From positions 496,001 to 560,000 of the forward strand of contig NZ_QUNO01000002.1 of the NCBI RefSeq assembly GCF_003387475.1: a stretch of 64,000 nt of DNA. The letters run 5' to 3'. The notes beneath the pieces were generated by a model that was not told the origin of the DNA, did not search any database, and was given only the letters and a program-made list of their open reading frames with translations. Positions 4,185-49,112 of this stretch are shown here, one piece after another. Both the position numbers and the translations under genes were made by a program. The DNA comes from Kutzneria buriramensis. GTDB taxonomy: Bacteria > Actinomycetota > Actinomycetes > Mycobacteriales > Pseudonocardiaceae. The first letter of the stretch is position 1. Each line of letters begins with the position of its first letter.

Positions 4185-4226
4185 TCGCCGAACTCACTGT
4201 GCGTGCACTACAGGGAGGTAGTGGTT

Positions 4227-5708
4227 GTGAGCGCCACCGTTGAGAGCGCGAAGCCGCCCCAGAAGGGTTTCTTCGGCCATCCCGCCGCTCTCGGGCCGCT
4301 GTTCTTCACCGAGTTCTGGGAGCGCGTCTCCTACTACGGGATGCGCGCCATCCTGCTGTACTTCATGTACAGCAAGCTCAGTGACGGCGGCCTGGGCCTG
4401 GACCCGACGCTGGCCAAGAGCCTGATGTCGATCTACGGCGCGGCCGTGTTCATGTCCGGCGTGGTGGGCGGCTGGCTGGCCGACCGGATCTTCGGCTCGC
4501 GCCGGGCCGTGCTCTACGGCGGCGTGCTGATCATGTTCGGGCACATCGCGCTGTCGTTCCCGTCCGGCGTGACCGCGCTGTACGTCTCGATGCTGCTGAT
4601 CACCATCGGCACCGGCCTGCTCAAGCCGAACATCTCCAACATGGTCGGCGGCCTGTACGACGAGAAGGACCGCCGCCGCGACGCCGGCTTCTCGATCTTC
4701 TACATGAGCACCAACGCCGGCGCCGTGGTCGCGCCGCTGCTGGTCGGCACGCTCGGCCAGGAGGTCAGCTACCACCTCGGCTTCTCCGTCGCCGCCATCG
4801 GCATGTTCCTGGCGCTGGTCATCTACCTGTTCGGCCGCAGCCGGCTCGGCGACGTCGGCGACGTGCCCGGCAACCCGCTGACCGCCGAGGAGCGCGGCAA
4901 GGTGCTCGGCCGCATCGGCATCGGCGCCGTGGTCGTGGTGGCGCTGTTCGTGGTGGTCGTGCTGGCCGGCTGGTTCACCGTCGGCCTCGTGATCAACGTG
5001 ATCAGCGCGCTGGGCATCCTGCTGCCGACCGCGTACTTCGTGACGATGATCCGCAGCAAGCAGGTCAACGACGTGGAGCGGTCCCGGGTCGTCGCCTACA
5101 TCCCGCTGTTCATCGCGTCCCTGTTCTTCTGGATGATCGAGGAGCAGGGCTCGGTGGTGCTGGCCGACTACGCCGCCAACCGGACCGACCTGCACATCGG
5201 CAGCCTGCCGCTGCTGGCGTCGTGGTTCCAGACCCTGAACCCCGGCTTCATCGTCGTGCTGGCCCCGGTGTTCGCGGTGATGTGGACCAAGCTCGGCAGC
5301 CGCCAGCCGTCCACCCCGGTCAAGTTCGCCATCGGCCTCGGCCTGGCCGGCGTCTCGTACCTGCTGATGGTGCTGCCCGCGGCGCTCTACGGCCCCGACG
5401 CCAAGGTCAGCCCGTTCTGGCTGGTCGGCAGCTTCCTCATCGTCATCCTCGGCGAGCTGTGCCTGTCCCCGGTGGGTCTGTCCGCCACGACCCGCCTGGC
5501 CCCCAAGGCCTTCGGCGCCCAGATGCTGAGCCTCTGGTTCCTGTCCGACGCCGCCGCCCAGGGCATCAGCGCCCAGATCGTGCCGTTCGCCACGCCGCAG
5601 ACGGAGATCCCGTACTTCGGCATCGTCGGCGGCATCACCGTCCTGCTGGCCGTCGGCCTGCTCTTCCTGGCGCCGGCCATCTCCCGCAAGATGCAGGGCG
5701 TCGACTGA
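4227..5708 (+). CDS. Proton-dependent oligopeptide transporter (POT/PTR2 family)
   Basis: 493-residue major-facilitator protein of the POT family, which imports di- and tripeptides with protons. The diagnostic ExxERxxYYG motif is present at residues 29-38 (EFWERVSYYG), followed by about 14 hydrophobic segments with the two-helix central insertion typical of bacterial POTs. The SD GGGAGG at 4213-4218 stands 8 nt before GTG 4227, so this start is preferred over in-frame GTGs at 4203 and 4221. It follows the EamA gene by only 42 bp on the same strand but has its own strong ribosome site. Downstream lies structured repeat element A (copy 1), which separates it from the convergent P450 gene. Confidence 0.95.
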   Translation: MSATVESAKPPQKGFFGHPAALGPLFFTEFWERVSYYGMRAILLYFMYSKLSDGGLGLDPTLAKSLMSIYGAAVFMSGVVGGWLADRIFGSRRAVLYGGVLIMFGHIALSFPSGVTALYVSMLLITIGTGLLKPNISNMVGGLYDEKDRRRDAGFSIFYMSTNAGAVVAPLLVGTLGQEVSYHLGFSVAAIGMFLALVIYLFGRSRLGDVGDVPGNPLTAEERGKVLGRIGIGAVVVVALFVVVVLAGWFTVGLVINVISALGILLPTAYFVTMIRSKQVNDVERSRVVAYIPLFIASLFFWMIEEQGSVVLADYAANRTDLHIGSLPLLASWFQTLNPGFIVVLAPVFAVMWTKLGSRQPSTPVKFAIGLGLAGVSYLLMVLPAALYGPDAKVSPFWLVGSFLIVILGELCLSPVGLSATTRLAPKAFGAQMLSLWFLSDAAAQGISAQIVPFATPQTEIPYFGIVGGITVLLAVGLLFLAPAISRKMQGVD

Positions 5709-5724
5709 GTTTTCTCCGCGCGTT

Positions 5725-5834
5725 CCGCGCGGGGCGAGGTCGCTCGTGACCGGTCTCTTCCCTTGGCTCAGCTCGATCGATGGACAGACTCGATCGAGCT
5801 GAGCCGGCGGTCCTTCAGACCGGCGCGACCTCGC
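5725..5834 (+). repeat. Structured intergenic element A, copy 1
   Basis: This is the first of three copies of a 110-nt element (others at 19232-19342 minus and 28508-28617). The order is a CCGCGCGGGG flank; outer helix A, 5734-5743 paired with 5825-5834 (10 bp); helix B, 5750-5756 with 5817-5823 (7 bp); unpaired CTTCCCTT; helix C, 5765-5780 with 5790-5805 (16 bp perfect), closed by the 9-nt loop TGGACAGAC; then GGCGGTCC before helix B closes. It lies between two convergent genes, and the rest of the interval up to 6007 shows nothing recognisable. It could act as a bidirectional terminator here. However, the other copies sit in codirectional and divergent gaps, and the unpaired parts are conserved, so simple termination does not explain it. 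Confidence 0.85.
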
Positions 5835-17475: not shown

Positions 17476-18237
17476 GTGTGCCGCCATCTGGGTTACCTGG
17501 GCCCCGCCGTGCCGCTGACCGAACTGCTGCTGGCGCCGCCGCATTCGCTGCTGCACCAGTCGTACGCGCCGGCCGACATGCGGCACGGCGGGACCATCAA
17601 CGCCGACGGGTTCGGGGCGGGCTGGTTCGCGCCCGGCGAGAAGGACCCCGCCCGCTATCGGCGCGCCACACCGATGTGGGCCGACACCGCGTTCGCCTCG
17701 CTGGCCGCGGCGACCAGGGCGACCGCCGTGGTCGCCGCGGTCCGGTCCGCCACCGTCGGCATGCCCGTGGTGGAGACGGCCAGTGCCCCGTTCGCCGAGG
17801 GGCGCTGGCTGTTCAGCCACAACGGAGTCGTGCGCGGCTGGCCGCACAGCGTCGAGCTGCTGGCGCAGCGGCTGCCGGTGACCGACCTGCTCACGCTGGA
17901 CGCCCCGACCGACGCCGCGCTGCTGTGGGCGCTGGTCCGGCACCGGCTGCGGGCCGGGCAGGAACCGGTGGACGCGATCGAGGCGGTCATGCTGGAAGTG
18001 GCCGTCGCCGCGCCCGACTCCCGCTTGAACCTGTTGCTGGGCAACGACGAGCTGCTCGTCGCCACCGCGTGGTGGCACTCGCTGTGGGTGCGGCCCGGGC
18101 CCGGCGCGGTGACCGTCGCGTCCGAGCCGATCGACGACGACCCCGCGTGGGTCGCCGTGCCCGACCGCAGCATCGTGTTCGCCTCGAAGACCACTGTGGA
18201 CATCCGACCCCTGGATCCAGGACGGCAGGAACAATGA
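17476..18237 (+). CDS. egtC: Ergothioneine biosynthesis amidohydrolase EgtC
   Basis: 253-residue class-II glutamine-amidotransferase-fold (Ntn) hydrolase that removes glutamate from the gamma-glutamyl hercynylcysteine sulfoxide. The protein begins V/M-CRHLGYLG, so Cys2 becomes the N-terminal nucleophile after the initiator is removed. Other Ntn signatures are NADGFGAGWF and FSHNGVVRG. The start is GTG 17476, 5 nt after egtB. The stop overlaps the ATG of egtD by 4 nt (ATGA), so EgtC and EgtD are translationally coupled. Confidence 0.96.
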   Translation: MCRHLGYLGPAVPLTELLLAPPHSLLHQSYAPADMRHGGTINADGFGAGWFAPGEKDPARYRRATPMWADTAFASLAAATRATAVVAAVRSATVGMPVVETASAPFAEGRWLFSHNGVVRGWPHSVELLAQRLPVTDLLTLDAPTDAALLWALVRHRLRAGQEPVDAIEAVMLEVAVAAPDSRLNLLLGNDELLVATAWWHSLWVRPGPGAVTVASEPIDDDPAWVAVPDRSIVFASKTTVDIRPLDPGRQEQ

Positions 18238-19205
18238 CGAATCCGGTAGTGGAGAACCACCTCACCGCCGACCACCTGGCCCGTGCGCTGCGCAACGACG
18301 TGCGAGCCGGGCTGGCCGGACCGCTCAAGTCGTTGCCGCCCAAGTGGTTCTACGACGCGGTGGGCAGCGACCTGTTCGAGAAGATCACCGAGCTGCCCGA
18401 GTACTACCCGACCCGGGCCGAGCGGGAGGTGCTGCGGGCCCGGGCCGCCGAGATCGCCGCGGTGACTTCTGCGCGGACCCTCGTCGAGCTCGGCTCCGGC
18501 TCGTCCGACAAGACCAGGACGCTGCTGGACGCCTTGCGGGACAACGGGTCGCTGCACCAGTTCGTGCCGATGGACGTGTCGGAGAGCGCCCTGCGGGCGG
18601 CCGCCGAGACGATCGTCGGCGAGTACCCGGGGCTGGCCGTGCACGCCGTCGTCGGTGACTTCACCGAGCACCTGGCGCTGCTGCCCGGCGACAGCCCGCG
18701 GCTGGTGGCGTTCCTCGGCGGCACCATCGGCAACCTGCTGCCGGCCGAGCGCGCCAAGTTCTTCGGCTCCATCCGGGAGGTGCTCGAGCCGGGGGAGTGG
18801 CTCCTGCTCGGCACCGACCTCGTCAAGGATCCCGGGGTGCTCGTGCCCGCCTACGACGACGCGCAGGGCGTGACCGCCGAGTTCAACCTCAACGTGCTGC
18901 GGGTGGTCAACCGGGAGCTCGACGCCGACTTCGACGCCGACGCCTTCGAGCACGTGGCGCTGTGGGACGACGTCAACGAGTGGATCGAGATGCGGCTTCG
19001 GGCGGTTCGTTCGATGCACGTCCGGCTGCCCGGCGCCGGCATCGAGGTCGACTTCGCCGCCGGCGAGGAGCTGCGCACCGAGATCTCGGCGAAGTTCCGG
19101 CGCGAGCGCGTCACCGCCGAACTGGCCGACGCCGGCTTCGGCCTGTCGCACTGGTGGACCGACAGCGCCGACCGGTTCGCCGTGTCGCTGTCCCGCGCGG
19201 AGTGA
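18234..19205 (+). CDS. egtD: L-histidine N-alpha-methyltransferase EgtD
   Basis: 323-residue SAM-dependent enzyme that trimethylates histidine to hercynine, the first committed step of ergothioneine synthesis. Visible family signatures are KWFYDAVGSDLFEKITELPE, the SAM loop LVELGSGSSDKTRTLLDAL and FLGGTIGNLLPAER. It is the last gene of the operon: egtE (the C-S lyase completing the pathway) is not next to it or elsewhere in the window. Downstream is structured element A copy 2 on the opposite strand. Confidence 0.97.
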   Translation: MTNPVVENHLTADHLARALRNDVRAGLAGPLKSLPPKWFYDAVGSDLFEKITELPEYYPTRAEREVLRARAAEIAAVTSARTLVELGSGSSDKTRTLLDALRDNGSLHQFVPMDVSESALRAAAETIVGEYPGLAVHAVVGDFTEHLALLPGDSPRLVAFLGGTIGNLLPAERAKFFGSIREVLEPGEWLLLGTDLVKDPGVLVPAYDDAQGVTAEFNLNVLRVVNRELDADFDADAFEHVALWDDVNEWIEMRLRAVRSMHVRLPGAGIEVDFAAGEELRTEISAKFRRERVTAELADAGFGLSHWWTDSADRFAVSLSRAE

Positions 19206-19231
19206 CGCGGTCAGTGGTGTCGTGACCGGCG

Positions 19232-19342
19232 CGGTTCGCCGGCCGATGCCTGGACCGCGGGCTTGTGGGGATCGAGTCGGTCCATCGATCCCCACAAGCC
19301 GAGGGAAGGCATCGGCCTCGTGGGGCGAACCGACCCGCGCGG
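19232..19342 (-). repeat. Structured intergenic element A, copy 2
   Basis: This is the reverse-oriented copy of the element at 5725-5834. Helix A is 19232-19240 with 19324-19332 (9 bp), helix B 19241-19251 with 19307-19317 (11 bp), and helix C 19260-19275 with 19285-19300 (16 bp). Read on the minus strand, the apical loop is TGGACCGAC. CTTCCCTC precedes helix C and GCCCGCGGTCC follows it, and CCGCGCGGGT flanks helix A. It fills most of the gap between egtD and the EFE gene, ending about 100 nt before the EFE start, antisense to both genes. Confidence 0.85.
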
Positions 19343-19439
19343 AACGCGTGGCGAGAACACAGTGACCGGTGCACGTAACTTTCGGCCCGGTGTCGGCGGT
19401 CCGTAGAACCGTTTGCGCCCGCACGACCGTGTGGACGCC

Positions 19440-20486
19440 ATGACGACACTTCGAACCTTCCAGCTGCCCGCCGAGGTCTCCGGTTCGATCTGGGACATCG
19501 CCCTGGGCGTCGAGATGATCCGCACCTGGCAGTCCGACGGTATTTTCCAGGTCGCCACCGGCACCGTCGCCAACGCCGTCACCGCCGCCGCGCTGCGGGA
19601 GAGCCGCCGCTTCTTCGCCCAGCCGCTGGAGGCCAAGACGCCGCTGGTCAGCGACCTCACCTATGCCGGCTACGTCGCGTCCGGCGAGGAGGTCACCGCC
19701 GGCGAACGGGACTACTCCGAGATCTTCACCGTCTGCAAGGACGTGCCGCTCGGCGATCCCCGGGTGCGCGCCGGCTGGCCATGCCACGGTCCCGTGCCGT
19801 GGCCCGGTCCGGTCTATCGCGACGTGATGACCGCCCTGATGTCGCAGTTCGGCCTCGTCGGCGACAAGGTCCTCAAGCTCGCCGCCCTCGGCCTCGGGCT
19901 GTCCGACATGGCCGCACTCACCTCGCTGGCCACCGACGGCTGGCACCACATGCGCGTGCTGCGCTTCCCCGCCCGCTCCGCCGCGACCGCCCGTGGCATC
20001 GGCGCCCACACCGACTACGGCATGCTCGTCATCGCCACCCAGGACGACGTCGGCAACGGCCTCTACGTCCGTCCCCCCGTGATCGGCGAGAAGCGCCCCC
20101 GCAACTGGCTCGACCACGAGAGCTCCGCCGGCGCCTTCGAACGAGAGGCGCCCTGGAACCTCGTCTCTCCGGTTCCCAGCACCTTCACCGTCTTCCCCGG
20201 CGACATCCTCCAGTTCCTCACCAACGGCGCCCTCCTCTCCACCCCGCACAAGGTCAAACTGGCCGAGCGGGAGCGCTACTCCATCGCCTACTTCCACGAA
20301 CCCGACTTCGCCGCCTCGCTGCGCCCCCTCACCGGCGGCCTCCCCGACGAGGTGATCCACTACGGCACCCACTTCACCAGCATGTTCATGCGCTGCTACC
20401 CCGACCGCCTCACCACCCGCCGCATCCTCGCCGAGGACCGCCTGCAGGTGCTGGACAGCATGCGCGAGTCCACCCTCACCGCCTGA
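19440..20486 (+). CDS. efe: 2-oxoglutarate/Fe(II) oxygenase, ethylene-forming-enzyme (EFE) homologue
   Basis: 348 residues, the same size as Pseudomonas syringae EFE, which converts 2-oxoglutarate to ethylene and CO2 and hydroxylates L-arginine. Shared stretches include SDLTYAGYVASGEEVTAG, AGWPCHGPVPWP, DGWHHMRVLRFP, HTDYG and MFMRCYPDR. Iron ligands are H190, D192 and H270; the 2-oxoglutarate arginine is R279. Residues matching the arginine/active-site pocket are E84, V85, T86, R172, Y193, R318, C319 and Y320. The EFE Phe278 position is Tyr280 here. The comparison is from memory of the EFE sequence. ATG 19440 is the homology-supported start, with a poor ribosome site; an upstream GTG at 19413 is possible. 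Many similar plant-type oxygenases exist, but this match looks specific. Confidence 0.85.
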   Translation: MTTLRTFQLPAEVSGSIWDIALGVEMIRTWQSDGIFQVATGTVANAVTAAALRESRRFFAQPLEAKTPLVSDLTYAGYVASGEEVTAGERDYSEIFTVCKDVPLGDPRVRAGWPCHGPVPWPGPVYRDVMTALMSQFGLVGDKVLKLAALGLGLSDMAALTSLATDGWHHMRVLRFPARSAATARGIGAHTDYGMLVIATQDDVGNGLYVRPPVIGEKRPRNWLDHESSAGAFEREAPWNLVSPVPSTFTVFPGDILQFLTNGALLSTPHKVKLAERERYSIAYFHEPDFAASLRPLTGGLPDEVIHYGTHFTSMFMRCYPDRLTTRRILAEDRLQVLDSMRESTLTA

Positions 20487-20950
20487 CCTGTTGGCGGTGG
20501 GTGCCTCCCAGCTCACCGCCGGCGACTGCCTCCTGCCGGCTGGCCCGCTGCTGCCGGCTGGCCCGCCGTCGGCGGGCGGCTCTCGCCGCGTGGTCAGTCG
20601 CCGTGGGTGGCTCCTGCCGGCTGGCGCGCCGCCGGGCGGCTGCCTCTTGCCGGTTGGCCCGTCGCTGGCGGGTGCGCCTCTGCCGGCTTGCCCGACGTTG
20701 GCCGGTGTCTCTCGCCGCCTGGCCCGTCGCTGGCGAGTGTGTCTTGCTGGCTGGCCCGTCGCTGGCGAGTGTGTCTTGCTGGCTGGCCCGACCGGGGCGC
20801 GCGTCCCTCGTCGCGTGTCCCTTGTCGCGTGGCCCGGCCGAGCGATTTGCCCAGCCGTTTTGCTTGACCTGTCTCTGGCGACCGGACGCGCCCGAGTTCA
20901 GTCGGGCCGACCCATCGCCCGCGAGTCTGCCCATTGCCCGTGATCCGGCC
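20487..20950. repeat. Degenerate GC-rich tandem-repeat tract
   Basis: About 460 bp built of variants of CTGCCGGCTGGCCCGTCGCT. The clearest part is a perfect 32-bp tandem duplication: 20721-20752 repeated at 20753-20784. Several frames on both strands are open simply because of the composition and give low-complexity translations. I see no ribosome site or family similarity, so I do not call a gene. It lies between the EFE gene and the convergent phosphotransferase gene. Confidence 0.8.
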
Positions 20951-20954
20951 CGCA

Positions 20955-21036
20955 CCGGGAGTCCCGGCGAGCGTCACATCGAAATGCGTGTAACGAATTC
21001 ACGCATTTCGGTGTGACTGTGGGCGGGACTCGCGGG
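20955..21036 (-). repeat. Structured intergenic element B, copy 1
   Basis: An 18-bp hairpin, 20973-20990 with 21000-21017 (one G-U pair), closes on a 9-nt loop that reads AATTCGTTA on the minus strand. An outer, less perfect arm pair contains GAGTCCC and GGGACTC (21023-21036 on the distal side). The same loop, the ATGYGTG/CACGCAT loop-proximal stem and the outer GCGAGTCCCGC arm recur at 49032-49112. The stem body differs while pairing is kept. It ends 2 bp from the phosphotransferase stop codon and may also serve as its terminator. Confidence 0.75.
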
Positions 21037-25605: not shown

Positions 25606-28374
<2,769 letters not shown>

Positions 28375-28462
28375 CGTGCGACGGCGCTGGTCAGTTCGGG
28401 AAGGTAGGGACCGAGTGTCGCGCACCTTGGTCGGGTGCGCCGCCGGACCCTGCTCAGCCTTA

Positions 28463-28492: not shown

Positions 28493-28507
28493 GGGGGGCT
28501 GTCTTCG

Positions 28508-28617
28508 CCGCGCGGGGCGGGTTCGCCTCCAAGCCGACGCCTTCCCTTGTCCCATGTCGATCGATGGACTGACTCGATCGACATGGGCCTGCGGTCCAGG
28601 CGTCGGCGGCGAACCCG
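28508..28617 (+). repeat. Structured intergenic element A, copy 3
   Basis: 110 nt, same plan as copies 1 and 2. The CCGCGCGGGG flank precedes helix A, 28518-28527 with 28608-28617 (10 bp). Helix B is 28533-28542 with 28598-28607 (10 bp), then TCCCTT. Helix C is 28551-28564 with 28574-28587 (14 bp) with loop TGGACTGAC, followed by GCCTGCGGTCC. It lies between divergent genes, about 16 bp upstream of the aconitase -35 and 77 bp before the ABC ATPase start. Apart from the aconitase promoter and this element, the 28375-28693 gap shows nothing else. Confidence 0.85.
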
Positions 28618-28693
28618 GGTGGCGGGCGGCGGCGGATCGTTCACGTGAATCTCTCACTGCCTGTGCCAGGATCGGCCGTCGGGAGGGGTGTTC

Positions 28694-29374
28694 TTGATCA
28701 CGGTCGACGGGGTGTGGATGCGCTACGGCCGCGGGCCGATGGTGCTGTCCGGGATCGACACGACCCTCGCGTCGGGATCGGTGACTGTCGTGCTCGGGGA
28801 GAACGGCTGCGGCAAGTCCACCCTCCTGCGTATCGCCGCAGGCGTCACCGTGCCGACCAAGGGTGCGGTGCGCGGGCGGCCCACCTCCGTGTCGTACTTG
28901 CCCGAACGATTCCCCGACCAGCTGCGGCTGTCGGCGCGGGCGTACCTGCGGCACTTCGCGCGTATGCGGCGGCTGCCCACCCGTAGCGACCTGCTCGACC
29001 GGCTCGGCTTCGCCGGCGACCTGGACCAGCCGATGTCGGAACTGTCCAAAGGCAACGCGCAGAAGGTCGGCCTCACCCAGACCTTCGGCTCCGTCGACGG
29101 CTTCCTGGTGTTGGACGAGCCGTGGGCGGGTCTCGACGTCGCTGCCCGGGAGGTGCTCAGCGAGCTGGTGGTGGAGACCGCCGCGACCGTGCTCGTCACC
29201 GACCACACCGGTGCCGCCGCCAAGCTGCCCGGCGCCACCGTGTACCGGATGGTGGCGGGGGTGCTGCAGCCGGTCGAGGAGTCGGGGCTGGTCGACGTCG
29301 TGGTGACGTGCACGTCGGACGCCGTGGACCAGGTGGCGGCGCTGCCCGGCGTGCAGTCGGTGCGGAGGGTGTAG
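28694..29374 (+). CDS. ABC transporter ATP-binding protein
   Basis: 226-residue ATPase. Walker A is GENGCGKST, Walker B is GFLVLDEPWAGLD and the H-loop region is VTDHTG. The signature is LSKGNAQK instead of LSGGQ, as in CcmA/BcrA-like exporters. TTG 28694 sits 7 nt after GGGAGG; GTG 28688 is in frame but too close to it. The stop TAG shares its G with the GTG of the permease gene (TAGTG), so the two are coupled. Substrate unknown. Confidence 0.9.
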   Translation: MITVDGVWMRYGRGPMVLSGIDTTLASGSVTVVLGENGCGKSTLLRIAAGVTVPTKGAVRGRPTSVSYLPERFPDQLRLSARAYLRHFARMRRLPTRSDLLDRLGFAGDLDQPMSELSKGNAQKVGLTQTFGSVDGFLVLDEPWAGLDVAAREVLSELVVETAATVLVTDHTGAAAKLPGATVYRMVAGVLQPVEESGLVDVVVTCTSDAVDQVAALPGVQSVRRV

Positions 29375-33067: not shown

Positions 33068-36000
33068 CGCTCGAACGGCTCGTCGACGCCCTGGCGGCCG
33101 CCCGGTTGGAGGTCACCGGCGAGGAACTGGCCGACGCCATCTGGCTGGCCGGGCACCTCGGCGACGGCCGTGCCGCCGGGACCGGCGAGCCGGCGCGGGA
33201 GCGGGAGGCGCCGCCGCCGCCGGTGGAGCCCGAGGAACAGGCGGCGCTGGGCGGCGTGGACCCGGAACCCAAGCCACGCTTGGGTCACCGGCCGTCGCCG
33301 GGCGCGAAGGAGGTGCCGGCGTCCGCGGCGGCGATGCACCTGCCGGGACGCGGCAACTACGTCAACGGCGTGAGCGCGTTGACGATGCTGAGCCCGGCGG
33401 CGCCGGCGCTGCCGGACAACCTGCGATTGCAGCGCGCACTGCGGCCGTTGAAGCGGCGCGTGCCGGATCCGCACCGGCTCGTCGTGAACGAGCAGGACAC
33501 CGCCGACCACATCGCGGACACGGGCTTGTGGCTGCCGGAGTGGCAGCCGGAGATGACGCGGTGGCTGGAAGTCGCGCTTGTCGTCGATTCCGGGCCGTCC
33601 ATGCGGATCTGGCGGCGCGCGGCGACGGAACTGCGGGTGTTGTTGGAGCGTATGGGGGCGTTCCGCGACGTGCGCGTGTGGGAGATGGACAGTCGCGACG
33701 AGGATCCGCGACTGTGTCGCCCCGGTGCGCCCAGCCGCAGCCCGCGCGAGCTGATCGACCCGAGTGGCCGTCGGCTTGTGCTGGTGCTCAGCGACTGCGT
33801 CGGCGAGGCGTGGCTTTCCGGTGCCATGTCACGGTTGTTGGCGACGTGGTCGAAGACCGGCTCGGTGGCGATCGTGCAGCCGTTGCCGCAGCGGCTGTGG
33901 CATCGCACCGGTGTGGTGCCGGTGCCGGTGCGGCTGCGGGCTTTCGAGTCCGGGCTGCCGTTCCGGCGGTTCGAGTTCCAGGCGCGCAACCAGGCGTTCG
34001 GCGCGCCGCCGCAGACGGGGATCGCCATCCCCGTGATGGAGTTGAACCCGCGCTGGATCGGCCGCTGGGCGTCGCTGCTGGCCGGCGAGAACCGCGGCTG
34101 GGTGGACGGTATCGTCATGCTGGCCGGTGGCGAGGTGGGCACGCGTCCGGAATGGATGGTGGACGCGCCGCCGGAGGATCCGCTGGACCTGGTGCAGGCC
34201 TTCCGTGCCACGGCCTCGCCGACGGCGTTCCGGCTGGCGTCGTACCTGGCGACCGCGCCGCTGAACCTGCCGGTGATGCGGCTGGTGCAGACGACGACGC
34301 TGCCCGAGTCGGGCCCGGCCCATCTGGCGGAAGTCTTCCTGGGACAACTGCTTCACCGGATCGGGGACGAGCAGCCGGGTGAGGACCCGGACGAAGTGCA
34401 GTATGATTTCCGCAAGGGCGTCAGGGAAAATCTGCTCGGCACACTGCGACGCGACGAGGCAGTGCGGGTCTTCGGCGAAGTGTCGAGGTACGTGGGCAGC
34501 AGGATGGGGCAGCCGCTGGACTTCGCGGCGATGCTGGCGAACCCTTTCGGGCACGACGGACCGAGGTTGTCCGCGGACAGCATGGCGTTCGCCCGAGTTC
34601 TGCACACCGTGTTGGAGGCGTTGGGGCCGCCGTACTCACAGGCGGCCAGGCGCTGGAGCGAGCTCGTGCCGGCACCGGAGGACGAGCCGTCGTCGGCGCT
34701 GGTCGAACTGACCACTTTGGACGGATCCGAGGCAGCAGCGCAGGATGTGGATGGGGAGGTGGTGACCGAAGAACCAGAGCGAACGGAGCGGTTGGCGTCG
34801 CAGATCTGCCTCAGCTACCACCCCCGGGACTACGCCTGGGCCGAGTGGCTGCGGTGGGAGCTGGACCGGCTCGGCTACGCGGTGGTGATCAGGCCGCTCG
34901 CCGAGACGTCCACCTCGGACGGTCTGCGCCGGCTCGCGGCCGAGGCGCTCGAGCATGGTCGTTACGTCATCACCGTGATCTCCGCGAGCACGATCGCGCT
35001 GCCCTACGCCGGCGAGGCGTGGTTGCAGGCACTCATCGACAGTCCCAGCAGCGACGGCCGGGTGCTGGCGGTGACCGTGCACGCCGGGCTGCTGCAGGCC
35101 GAGATGGTGGACCGCATCGACGGCGTCACCTTCGAGGGCAAGGACGCCCGGACGGCGCTGAACTCCATCGTGGACTGCCTCGGCCGGGTGGCGGCTCGGC
35201 CGGCGCGCACCACGCCGCCGGAGGTGCTGCGCTTTCCGCCGCCGCCGTTTCCGGGCGACGACGCGCACGTCGGCGAGCCCGACAGCCAGGGGCCGGTGTG
35301 GGTGCTGACCGAGGTCCGGTCGGTCGGCCGGTCGCTGCTGGCCCGCGGGGGCGCGGACGGCGCGGTGCGGCTGATCGACGTGGCCAGCGGGCAGACCGTG
35401 CTCAACCTGGAGGGCCACACCGGCCCCGTCCGGGTGCTGGCGGCGATCCCGGCCGCCGACGGCGACCACGGCATGATCGCCAGCGGCGGCGTGGACGGCA
35501 TCGTCCGCACCTGGGACCTGGACTCCGGGCAGCTGCGCCGGGAGAGCCGGTTCCTGGAGGGCGAGGTGTGGGCGTTGACCACGGTCCGCGTCGGCGGCCG
35601 GATCTGCCTGGCCGGCACCGGGTCCGGGTCGATGATCCAGCTCTGGGACCCGGGCAGCGGGCAGCGGCTGCGCACGCTGGTGCGCCGCGGCGGCCGGGTG
35701 TGGGCGTTGGCGTCGGTGGAGGTCGCCGGCCGCGAGCTGCTGGCCAGCGGCGGCGCCGACGGCACCATCCGGCTGTGGGACCCGGAGACCAGCTCCGTGC
35801 TGCGCACCATCCAGGCGCACCGCAGCACGGTGTGGGCGCTGACCACGATCACGGTGAACGGCGAGTCGCTGCTGGCCAGCGGCGGCGCGGACGGCATGAT
35901 CCACCTCTGGCACCCGCGCACCGGCGCGTTGGTCAACTCGTTCGTCGGGCATGTCAGCACCATCCGCACGCTGGCGGTGGTGCCGACCCAGCAGGGCGAC

Positions 36001-37122
36001 CTGCTGGCCAGCGGCAGCGCGGACAGCACGGTGCGGCTGTGGAACCCGCGCACCGCGCGGGACGGCGTCGAACACCGGTTCAGCCACCACACCGGCGAGG
36101 TGTGGGCGCTGGCCGCGGTCGAGGTCGCCGGGCGCGTCCAGCTGGCGAGCGGCGGCGTGGACGGCACGATCCGGCTCGCCGACCCGATCACGTACCAGAC
36201 CGACGAGCTCCAGTCGGTGCGGTCCAGCGCGGTGTGGGCGCTTACGTCCGTGCTGCTGCCGGACCGGACGCTGCTGGCCAGCGGGGCGTTGGACGGCTCC
36301 GTGCACCTGCACGAGCTGTCCGGCTTCTCCGAGGAGCGGACGCTGCGCGGGCACCGGAGCACGATCCGGGCGCTGGCGTCGGTGCCGGGGCCGGGGCGGG
36401 TGCTGCTCGCGACCGGGTCGTCCGACGGCACCGTGCGGATCTGGGACGCCGACACCGGCGACCACCTGTCCACCCGGGCCGAACACACCGGCGAGGTGTG
36501 GACGGTGACTCCCCTGCTGGTGCACGGCGAGCGGTTCATGGCCAGCGGCAGCGCCGACGGCACGATCCGGCTGTGGCCGCTGGACCGGGCCGAGGAGTCG
36601 CAGGTGCTGCGCGGGCCGGCGGCCGAGGTGGTGTCGCTGGCGGCGATCGAGGGCACCCGCGGCCCGCTGCTGGCCAGCGCGGACAGCGACGGCCGGGTCC
36701 TGCTGTGGGATCCGGCGTCGTGCGAGTTGCTCGGCACGTTCGACGACGGCCTGGCCGGCGTCGTGACGCTCACGGTGGTCGACGGCCGGCTGGCCGCCGG
36801 ATGTCAGGACGGCACCATCGCGGTCGGCGATCCCGGCGACGAGGTGCGGCTGGTGATGGACAGCGGGCTGGGGCACGTCGGCGCGCTGGGGCCGGTGCGG
36901 GTCGGCGACCGCCGGCTGCTGGCCAGCGGCGGCTTCGGCGGCCTGATCCAGTTCTGGGACGTGCGCACCGGCGACCTCGTCGGCGAGTACCAGGCGCACG
37001 GTGGGACCGTGCGCGCGCTGACGCGCGTCCGGGTGGAGGGGCAGCCGCTGATCGCCAGCGCCAGCGACGACGGCGACTTCCTGCTGTGGGACCCCAGCAG
37101 CCGGATGCGGCCCCGGCCGTGA
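33064..37122 (+). CDS. vWA (SAV_2336-type) - TIR - WD40 fusion protein
   Basis: 1352 residues. A linker (1-160) is followed by a vWA-like domain with MIDAS-type DSGPS at 175-179 and [14 protein letters not shown] helical region follows to about 560. The TIR domain begins at about 580 ([20 protein letters not shown]), with E651 in YAGEAW at the position of the NAD-cleaving glutamate of TIR enzymes. From about 743 to the end there are 14 WD40-type blades, i.e. two seven-bladed propellers. Blades are unusually alike, built on WALTxVxVxGRxLLASGGxD then GTIRLWDP. It carries sensor (WD40), partner (vWA) and candidate effector (TIR) in one chain. ATG 33064 overlaps the MoxR stop. It is followed by a direct-repeat array that includes its stop codon. 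Confidence 0.88.
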
Positions 37123-37318
37123 ACCGGCGGGGTGCGGATCGGGTCGGCGGCCGTGAACCGGCGAGGGCCGGGAGCGGGTGCGGGCTTGAACCGGCGATCC
37201 CGGGTCGGGTGCCGGTATGAACCGGGTGCCGGATCGGGTGCGGGTGTGAACCGGCGGGGCGGAAATCGGGCACGGGCGTGAACCGGCGGGGGCGGGGATC
37301 GAGCGCGGCCGTGAATGT
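37118..37318. repeat. Imperfect tandem repeats of about 32 bp
   Basis: Seven occurrences of TGAACCGG or a variant begin at 37120, 37154, 37187, 37218, 37247, 37279 and 37312 (spacing 29-34 bp), each followed by CGGGG and GATCGGGTGCGGGC-like sequence. The first TGA is the stop codon of the WD40 gene; the last copies reach into the possible N-terminal extension of the permease gene. Unit lengths that are not multiples of three argue against coding. Confidence 0.8.
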
Positions 37319-49031: not shown

Positions 49032-49112
49032 CCCGCGAGTCCCGCTCGGCGTCAGGGCGAATGTGTGAATTCGTTTCACGCATTCGCCCTGTTCGTGGGC
49101 GGGACTCGCGGG
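49032..49112 (+). repeat. Structured intergenic element B, copy 2
   Basis: The outer helix CCCGCGAGTCCCGC/GCGGGACTCGCGGG (49032-49045 with 49099-49112) is a perfect 14 bp. The inner helix, 49054-49067 with 49077-49090 (14 bp, one G-U), closes on the loop AATTCGTTT. The loop and the first seven stem pairs match copy 1 at 20955-21036, while the distal part of the inner stem has changed on both sides. It lies 6 nt after the acyl-CoA synthetase stop, so it may act as its terminator. Confidence 0.8.

Follow-up and report, generated by a model that had tools for sequence, protein, structure and literature searches.

Three copies of a long structured repeat, whose stems differ in sequence from copy to copy while pairing is kept, lie in a 64,000-nucleotide stretch of a Kutzneria genome (the window), and they raise the question of whether such a repeat is an RNA selected for its fold or a piece of DNA that spreads as a hairpin. 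We favour, with a probability of roughly 0.6, the reading that it belongs to a family of non-autonomous, dispersed, putatively mobile palindromic repeats of Pseudonocardiaceae, some 128-131 nt long and kept as a DNA hairpin.

Architecture and pairing of the repeat

The first-pass annotation of this DNA placed the copies exactly, at 5725-5834 (+), 19232-19342 (-) and 28508-28617 (+). Its length of 110 nt proved too short, the unit measuring about 130 nt once one counts a further hairpin and, ahead of it, some 10 nt of lead (consensus TGTGYYTTTG, computed with three copies of the set left out); the supposed CCGCGCGGG flank forms the 3' arm of this additional hairpin, which is truncated in copy 3. 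The features are as follows.

5706..5715, + strand: 5' lead of copy 1, TGAGTTTTCT (Kutzneria consensus TGTGYYTTTG)
5716..5732, + strand: hairpin 1 of copy 1, CCGCGCG-TTC-CGCGCGG
5734..5834, + strand: main hairpin of copy 1, arm limits taken from the sequence
5734-5743/5825-5834, + strand: helix A of copy 1
5750-5756/5817-5823, + strand: helix B of copy 1
5765-5780/5790-5805, + strand: helix C of copy 1, with its loop at 5781-5789
19231..19361, - strand: copy 2, unit with lead
28500..28618, + strand: copy 3, unit with hairpin 1 truncated

In the main hairpin helix A encloses helix B, and helix B encloses helix C. The 5' strand bulges by about 5-8 nt where A gives way to B, a small internal loop rich in pyrimidines (CTTCCCT, with GGTCC on the other side) lies further in, and the apical loop has 9 nt; hairpin 1, with its 3-nt loop, stands separately upstream and is itself preceded by the lead. 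Three types of apical domain were distinguished by eye, one whose loop has 9 nt, one whose loop has about 30 nt, and one in which the lead and hairpin 1 appear again within the loop. The first three bases of the copy 1 lead are the stop codon TGA of the upstream POT-transporter ORF (4203-5708); copy 2 is flanked by an egtD-like ORF (17478-19205, +) and a 2OG-Fe(II) oxygenase ORF (19413-20486, +), and copy 3 separates aconitase (25606-28425, -) from a divergently oriented ABC ATPase ORF (28688-29374, +).

Read from either strand, all three copies fold far better than dinucleotide shuffles (z of -5.8 to -7.7; no shuffle out of 200 reaching the native value in any of the six folds). An alignment of 24 copies has 98.3% of its cells paired and contains 87 double-change cells, a count equalled by none of 500 shuffles, and slid controls are 29-42% paired, so that the claim of covarying helices is borne out. 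The larger set of 75 distinct copies, drawn from 80 matches in 69 chosen sources and confined to the 119-nt type, with the longer apical types excluded, has 98.2% of cells paired, 552 double-change cells against 143 in shuffles, and slid controls at 29-44%; in 27 distinct copies from other genera the figures are 93.3% and 292 against 88, all these alignments being fitted to a model and their cells tallying copies rather than events. One locus without an apical part (L339) was omitted from alignments A5 and A6. Pairing that had been called perfect is thus near-perfect over the 75 copies and not perfect in every one of them.

A proposed pseudoknot between GGAC of the apical loop and GTCC of the 3' segment finds no support: GTCC occurs without loop GGAC in 40 of the 75 distinct copies and together with it in 24, and the 28 copies from other genera include none with loop GGAC, 23 with GTCC and 21 with CTTCCCT. 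Rfam yielded no match in the window at the gathering threshold and, over ten further loci searched with E up to 5, a single sub-gathering match away from the element; the repeat was rightly described as belonging to no named RNA family, as far as the window and these ten loci go.

Other repeats were noticed in the same stretch. A second palindromic repeat, with arms CCCGCGAGTCCCGCTC...GGGACTCGCGGG, lies at 49032-49112 and 21007-21036; its arm motif occurs 21 times in a 400-kb portion of the Kutzneria relative G006 and 4 times in 400 kb of G002, and elsewhere in the window's genome the repeat studied here is, by eye, set within copies of it. At 20521-20809 a unit of about 32 nt is imperfectly repeated in tandem. 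Repeats mostly 132 nt (44 codons) apart run from 35290 to 37102 in a large ORF that looks beta-propeller-like by eye, the ORF at 34845-37220 giving no Pfam hit, and short repeats around GTGAACCGGCGGGG follow at 37114-37291, near the end of this ORF.

Copies across genomes, genes and orthologous sites

The repeat is by no means a three-copy element. A covariance model (R1) built from 24 copies gives 104 matches in the window's 12-Mb genome, where 150 of 24,738 first-look candidates were scored; this amounts to about 100 copies, at least two of the matches being opposite-strand calls of listed copies. R1 also matched five of the six other Kutzneria genomes (47, 39, 23, 14 and 52 matches) and gave none in the sixth (G003, 4.7 Mb), again none with 150 candidates scored. 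Outside the genus, R1 matched 0 of 34 genomes in a first sample, and in a family sample, with 18 candidates scored per listed genome, 11 of 200 genomes were positive, five of them outside Kutzneria. A second model (R2, 39 sequences), with nine candidates scored per listed genome, was positive in 11 of 397 genomes of an order sample, all within a single family (f1), and in an equally shallow phylum sample in the window's own genome alone (1 of 396). Over these overlapping samples 13 non-Kutzneria genomes were positive, from four genera (g8, g16, g37 and g61) of Pseudonocardiaceae, the family to which Kutzneria belongs; since one of the 13 (G013) was negative under R1, negatives are weak. With 150 candidates scored in each of ten chosen genomes, nine were positive, with 75 matches (G199), 15, 13, 9, 9, 8, 8, 4 and 1. 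The same architecture of lead, hairpin 1 with a 3-nt loop and long bulged hairpin recurs across genera with different stem sequences. The genome search that the first-pass annotation had suggested finds covariation well past the three copies, with differing stem letters.

Neither a search for an exact 23-base pattern from the type-1 loop nor blastn of copy 1 found a match pointing to phage, plasmid or viral carriage, and a scan with a 19-base pattern returned at least 98 stretches, of which, among the 80 listed, 7 were Kutzneria and the other 73 presumed chance matches. Two contigs of G000 carry a copy at an identical offset from their first base (C18:196 and C25:196), which may mark places where the assembly broke at repeats.

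Where do the copies lie relative to genes? A codon-usage gene finder made for this analysis was applied to 75 of the 104 matches, and the 73 that could be classified comprise 27 in convergent, 36 in tandem and 6 in divergent spacers, 1 intragenic copy and 3 with a single called neighbour. A background of 559 spacers, drawn from the window and from 400 kb of each of G006 and G002, contains 88 convergent, 327 tandem and 144 divergent ones; against it the copies are over-represented in convergent spacers (27 of 69 vs 88 of 559, p = 2e-5) and under-represented in divergent ones (p = 9e-4). For the 44 copies with a facing stop codon on the 5' side the median separation is 13 nt, and for the 47 with one on the 3' side it is 21 nt; in 19 of the 44 the 5'-side stop codon falls at 0-7 nt, within the lead. 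Among 24 copies from other genera, where genes were called with Kutzneria codon usage, 6 are convergent, 16 tandem and 2 divergent.

Inside genes, a copy forms a 41-codon in-frame insertion in a D-serine dehydratase-like gene (PF14031), missing from six of six orthologues at the protein level, with DNA compared for five. Another makes up part of the N-terminus of an ABC permease gene, where it is retained in four species and the frame is open in all four genomes even though the copy comes in 118- and 142-nt versions. A systematic scan for coding ORFs spanning a copy found the PF14031-gene insertion alone. Of the 444 reading frames across 74 copies, 278 are open, where simple shuffles leave 202 open.

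At the orthologous sites compared the repeat is mostly absent. Copies 2 and 3 have no counterpart in the orthologous spacers of G006 and G002; copy 1 is also found in G006, and other hairpins stand at the same spot in G001, G002 and G005. With 13 extra sites added (C11:96840, which has several paralogues, and C9:98143, with weak matches, were dropped from 15), 46 site-by-genome comparisons with G001, G002 and G006 gave a model match in 9 and none in 37 (E up to 0.05), four copies of G006 and G002 that could not be placed in the other genome being excluded from the count. The matched sites are these.

Copy 1: in G006
C8:233761: in G001
C1:98517: in G006; in G002 reversed and partial
C1:997899: in all of G001, G002 and G006
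C1:856802: in G001 (another apical type) and in G006 (no apical part)

Four further places were read by eye as remnants: C25:67736 in G002 and in G001, C1:736062 in G002 and C30:2774 in G001. At C1:98517 the copies of G000 and G006 share the site but not the distal part of helix C, and one set of copies is embedded in an arm of another palindromic repeat. By eye, several other long hairpins, for example CTGACGTTCAACGTCAG-centred ones, stand right after the same stop codons in relatives (L218, L219, L220 and L278-L317); the core patterns of these hairpins gave 0-2 matches per searched stretch over 864 kb.

The ends of the unit are best seen in arrays. In eight of nine fetched arrays of G199, adjacent head-to-tail copies are separated by the lead alone (11-12 nt, T/G GTG...), which runs from the CTCGC of one copy to hairpin 1 of the next, so that a unit spans 128-131 nt; in the ninth the lead is shortened and the spacing is 126 nt, and a tenth has a spacing of 195 nt with other sequence between the copies. 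Three copies in G004 are spaced 136 nt. A C immediately precedes the lead in 54 of the 75 Kutzneria copies, and the unit ends are C/TGTG (the slash marking the boundary) and CTCGC. Comparison with empty sites found one compatible with 1-3 repeated bases and two that point to a loss of about 5 bases; a 3-base CTG duplication, read from one site, was rejected as a general feature, as the remaining sites disagree. A search of seven Kutzneria genomes for Y1_Tnp gave no match in six, and in G002 a match over 33 positions, at 23.8 bits against a cut-off of 23, in a 58-aa frame. The idea that the outward-facing copies C18:60688/61762 enclose a transposase source element was also abandoned, the ORF between them looking by eye like a MerR-type regulator with a glyoxalase-like part.

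DNA hairpin or RNA

An RNA selected on one strand should tolerate G-U pairs on that strand, and the little preference that the element shows argues for a DNA reading. Among the 2983 cells of the 75-copy Kutzneria set there are 29 G-T (11 of them from one loop-closing pair) and 17 A-C, an excess that is not significant (p = 0.10) and that becomes 18 vs 17 without the loop-closing pair; among 1043 cells from other genera the direction is the opposite (17 G-T, 36 A-C, p = 0.013). tRNAs of the same genome served as a control and gave 30 G-T and 0 A-C in 680 cells (32 distinct tRNAs), taken from the 30 best-scoring of 53 places with ARAGORN's own arms, so that A-C may be under-reported. Pair changes in the repeat run mostly from one Watson-Crick pair to another, and wobble is scarce read from either strand. 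In tandem gene pairs 17 copies lie in sense and 19 in antisense (p = 0.87), this test and that on wobble not being independent, as copies are related.

Compensatory change of this kind need not mean selection on RNA. Inverted arms are homogenised by template switching between them, as the part of PMC8604942 available describes, and if one arm is copied from the other, substitutions are expected to show on both sides together. In 59 pairs of nearest-neighbour copies changed base pairs are two-sided in 157 cases and one-sided in 68, and unpaired columns differ in 10.2% of comparisons, paired columns in 8.2%. Arm-to-arm copying at the DNA level could yield identical covariation. The first-pass annotation took covarying helices together with conserved unpaired segments as the hallmark of selected structure: a real, maintained structure is there, and its selection as RNA is weakened by the scarcity of wobble, by the 17 vs 19 strands and by absence at most of the orthologous sites compared.

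We propose that the unit would spread as a DNA hairpin, probably in single-stranded or cruciform DNA, and that its shape (lead, hairpin 1 and bulged main hairpin) may be read by a putative enzyme. Insertion would take place beside a C and duplicate little if any of the target, and copying of one arm from the other, through template switching or hairpin repair, would keep the two alike. Copies would persist mainly in 3' spacers because they probably do least harm there; a few may be translated in frame as protein, and any effect on mRNA ends would be secondary. This mobile-repeat reading agrees with the many copies per genome, the presence-absence differences between species, the abutting arrays and a fixed architecture with changing stem letters. 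Against it, CTTCCCT and GTCC recur across genera, which pure arm copying does not need, and several copies are held at one site across species. It is conceivable, and we would call it speculative, that the family represents a new class of mobile element acting as single-strand DNA, whose recognition and copying depend on shape; stem letters would be overwritten from arm to arm, leaving little sequence in common between the stems of different genera at near-perfect pairing, and a putative mobiliser would lie outside Y1 and DDE.

The alternative that survives best is a structured RNA selected as RNA and spread as copies, acting either in 3' untranslated regions as a hairpin at which transcripts end or by which they are protected, or else as an RNA bound by protein, and we regard it as rather unlikely, with some real chance of being right. 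The nearness of facing stop codons (medians of 13 or 21 nt) would suit it, as would the frequent position, by eye, ahead of a native terminator-like hairpin, the other long hairpins at the same spots in relatives, the CTTCCCT and GTCC common to several genera and the copy retained in four species at the start of the ABC permease gene; yet strand preference is absent (17 vs 19), wobble is rare and not significantly more frequent on the modelled strand, a match is missing in 37 of the 46 comparisons of orthologous sites, and copies also lie within a gene and in divergent spacers. An RNA role beside the DNA reading we likewise treat as a tentative possibility.

A MITE or REP, that is, a truncated insertion sequence that a transposase mobilises via terminal inverted repeats, or a repeat moved by a RAYT, seems improbable. 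The family resembles such repeats in its copy number, its size, its 3' location and its intragenic cases, but the unit does not end in inverted repeats, since the lead and hairpin 1 stand outside the inverted arms, clear duplication is not seen at the sites compared, and Y1_Tnp has no match in six of seven Kutzneria genomes and a marginal one in the seventh. Least credible of all is a cassette-like site at which a site-specific recombinase builds head-to-tail arrays at the conserved C/TGTG junction, for although copies abut in eight of nine G199 arrays and G004 has its trio at 136-nt spacing, the copies listed in the window's own genome are never closer than about 900 bases.

Comparison with known systems

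If the DNA-hairpin reading holds, small palindromic repeats are thereby extended to Pseudonocardiaceae, a family rich in antibiotic producers. It would also be an example of textbook-grade covariation over many copies that need not imply a functional RNA, and scarce wobble together with strand symmetry could separate DNA hairpins from RNA in searches for structured RNAs. Arrays and fairly precise ends make a search for the mobilising enzyme practicable. Judged by titles and the openings of abstracts, the open-licence literature does not report the family; in the available portions of the Kutzneria albida genome paper 'repetitive elements' appears once, for assembly gaps, and 'palindrom' is absent.

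With the structured RNAs of Rfam the repeat shares a conserved secondary structure with covariation, and it differs in matching none of them at the gathering threshold in the window and the ten further loci. From MITEs it differs in missing terminal inverted repeats, the array junctions placing lead and hairpin 1 before helix A. REPs lie between convergent or unidirectional genes near 3' ends, and a repeat end may provide the stop codon, according to the excerpted text of PMC3733652; similarly, 63 of the 73 classified copies here follow the 3' ends of genes, in spacers that are convergent or unidirectional. The present repeat is about four times longer (128-131 nt against a palindrome of 20-40 bp), has the ends C/TGTG and CTCGC in place of a GTAG or CGTC tag, and comes from Kutzneria genomes in which a RAYT (Y1_Tnp) was not found except for the 33-position match in G002; identity with a RAYT/REP system was therefore rejected on size, end tags and RAYT gene alike.

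Two longer repeats also resemble it. RPE is a long stem-loop of 105-146 bp found as in-frame insertions in protein genes, in 19 reading frames, in the part of PMC2229807 consulted, and the repeat described here is also a long stem-loop with an in-frame gene insertion (the 41 codons in the PF14031 gene). Here there is one intragenic insertion and one N-terminal case, and spacers near stop codons predominate. ERIC has the form of an imperfect palindrome, and the repeat is also an intergenic imperfect palindrome of the ~127 bp class (128-131 nt) with an in-frame case. The same portion of PMC2229807 describes ERIC as a 127 bp repeat that is co-transcribed with its neighbours and occasionally lies in frame within genes. 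ERIC is enterobacterial, whereas the repeat of Pseudonocardiaceae is built from a TGTG lead and a hairpin with a 3-nt loop followed by a bulged hairpin, and its stems vary widely among copies while their pairing is held.
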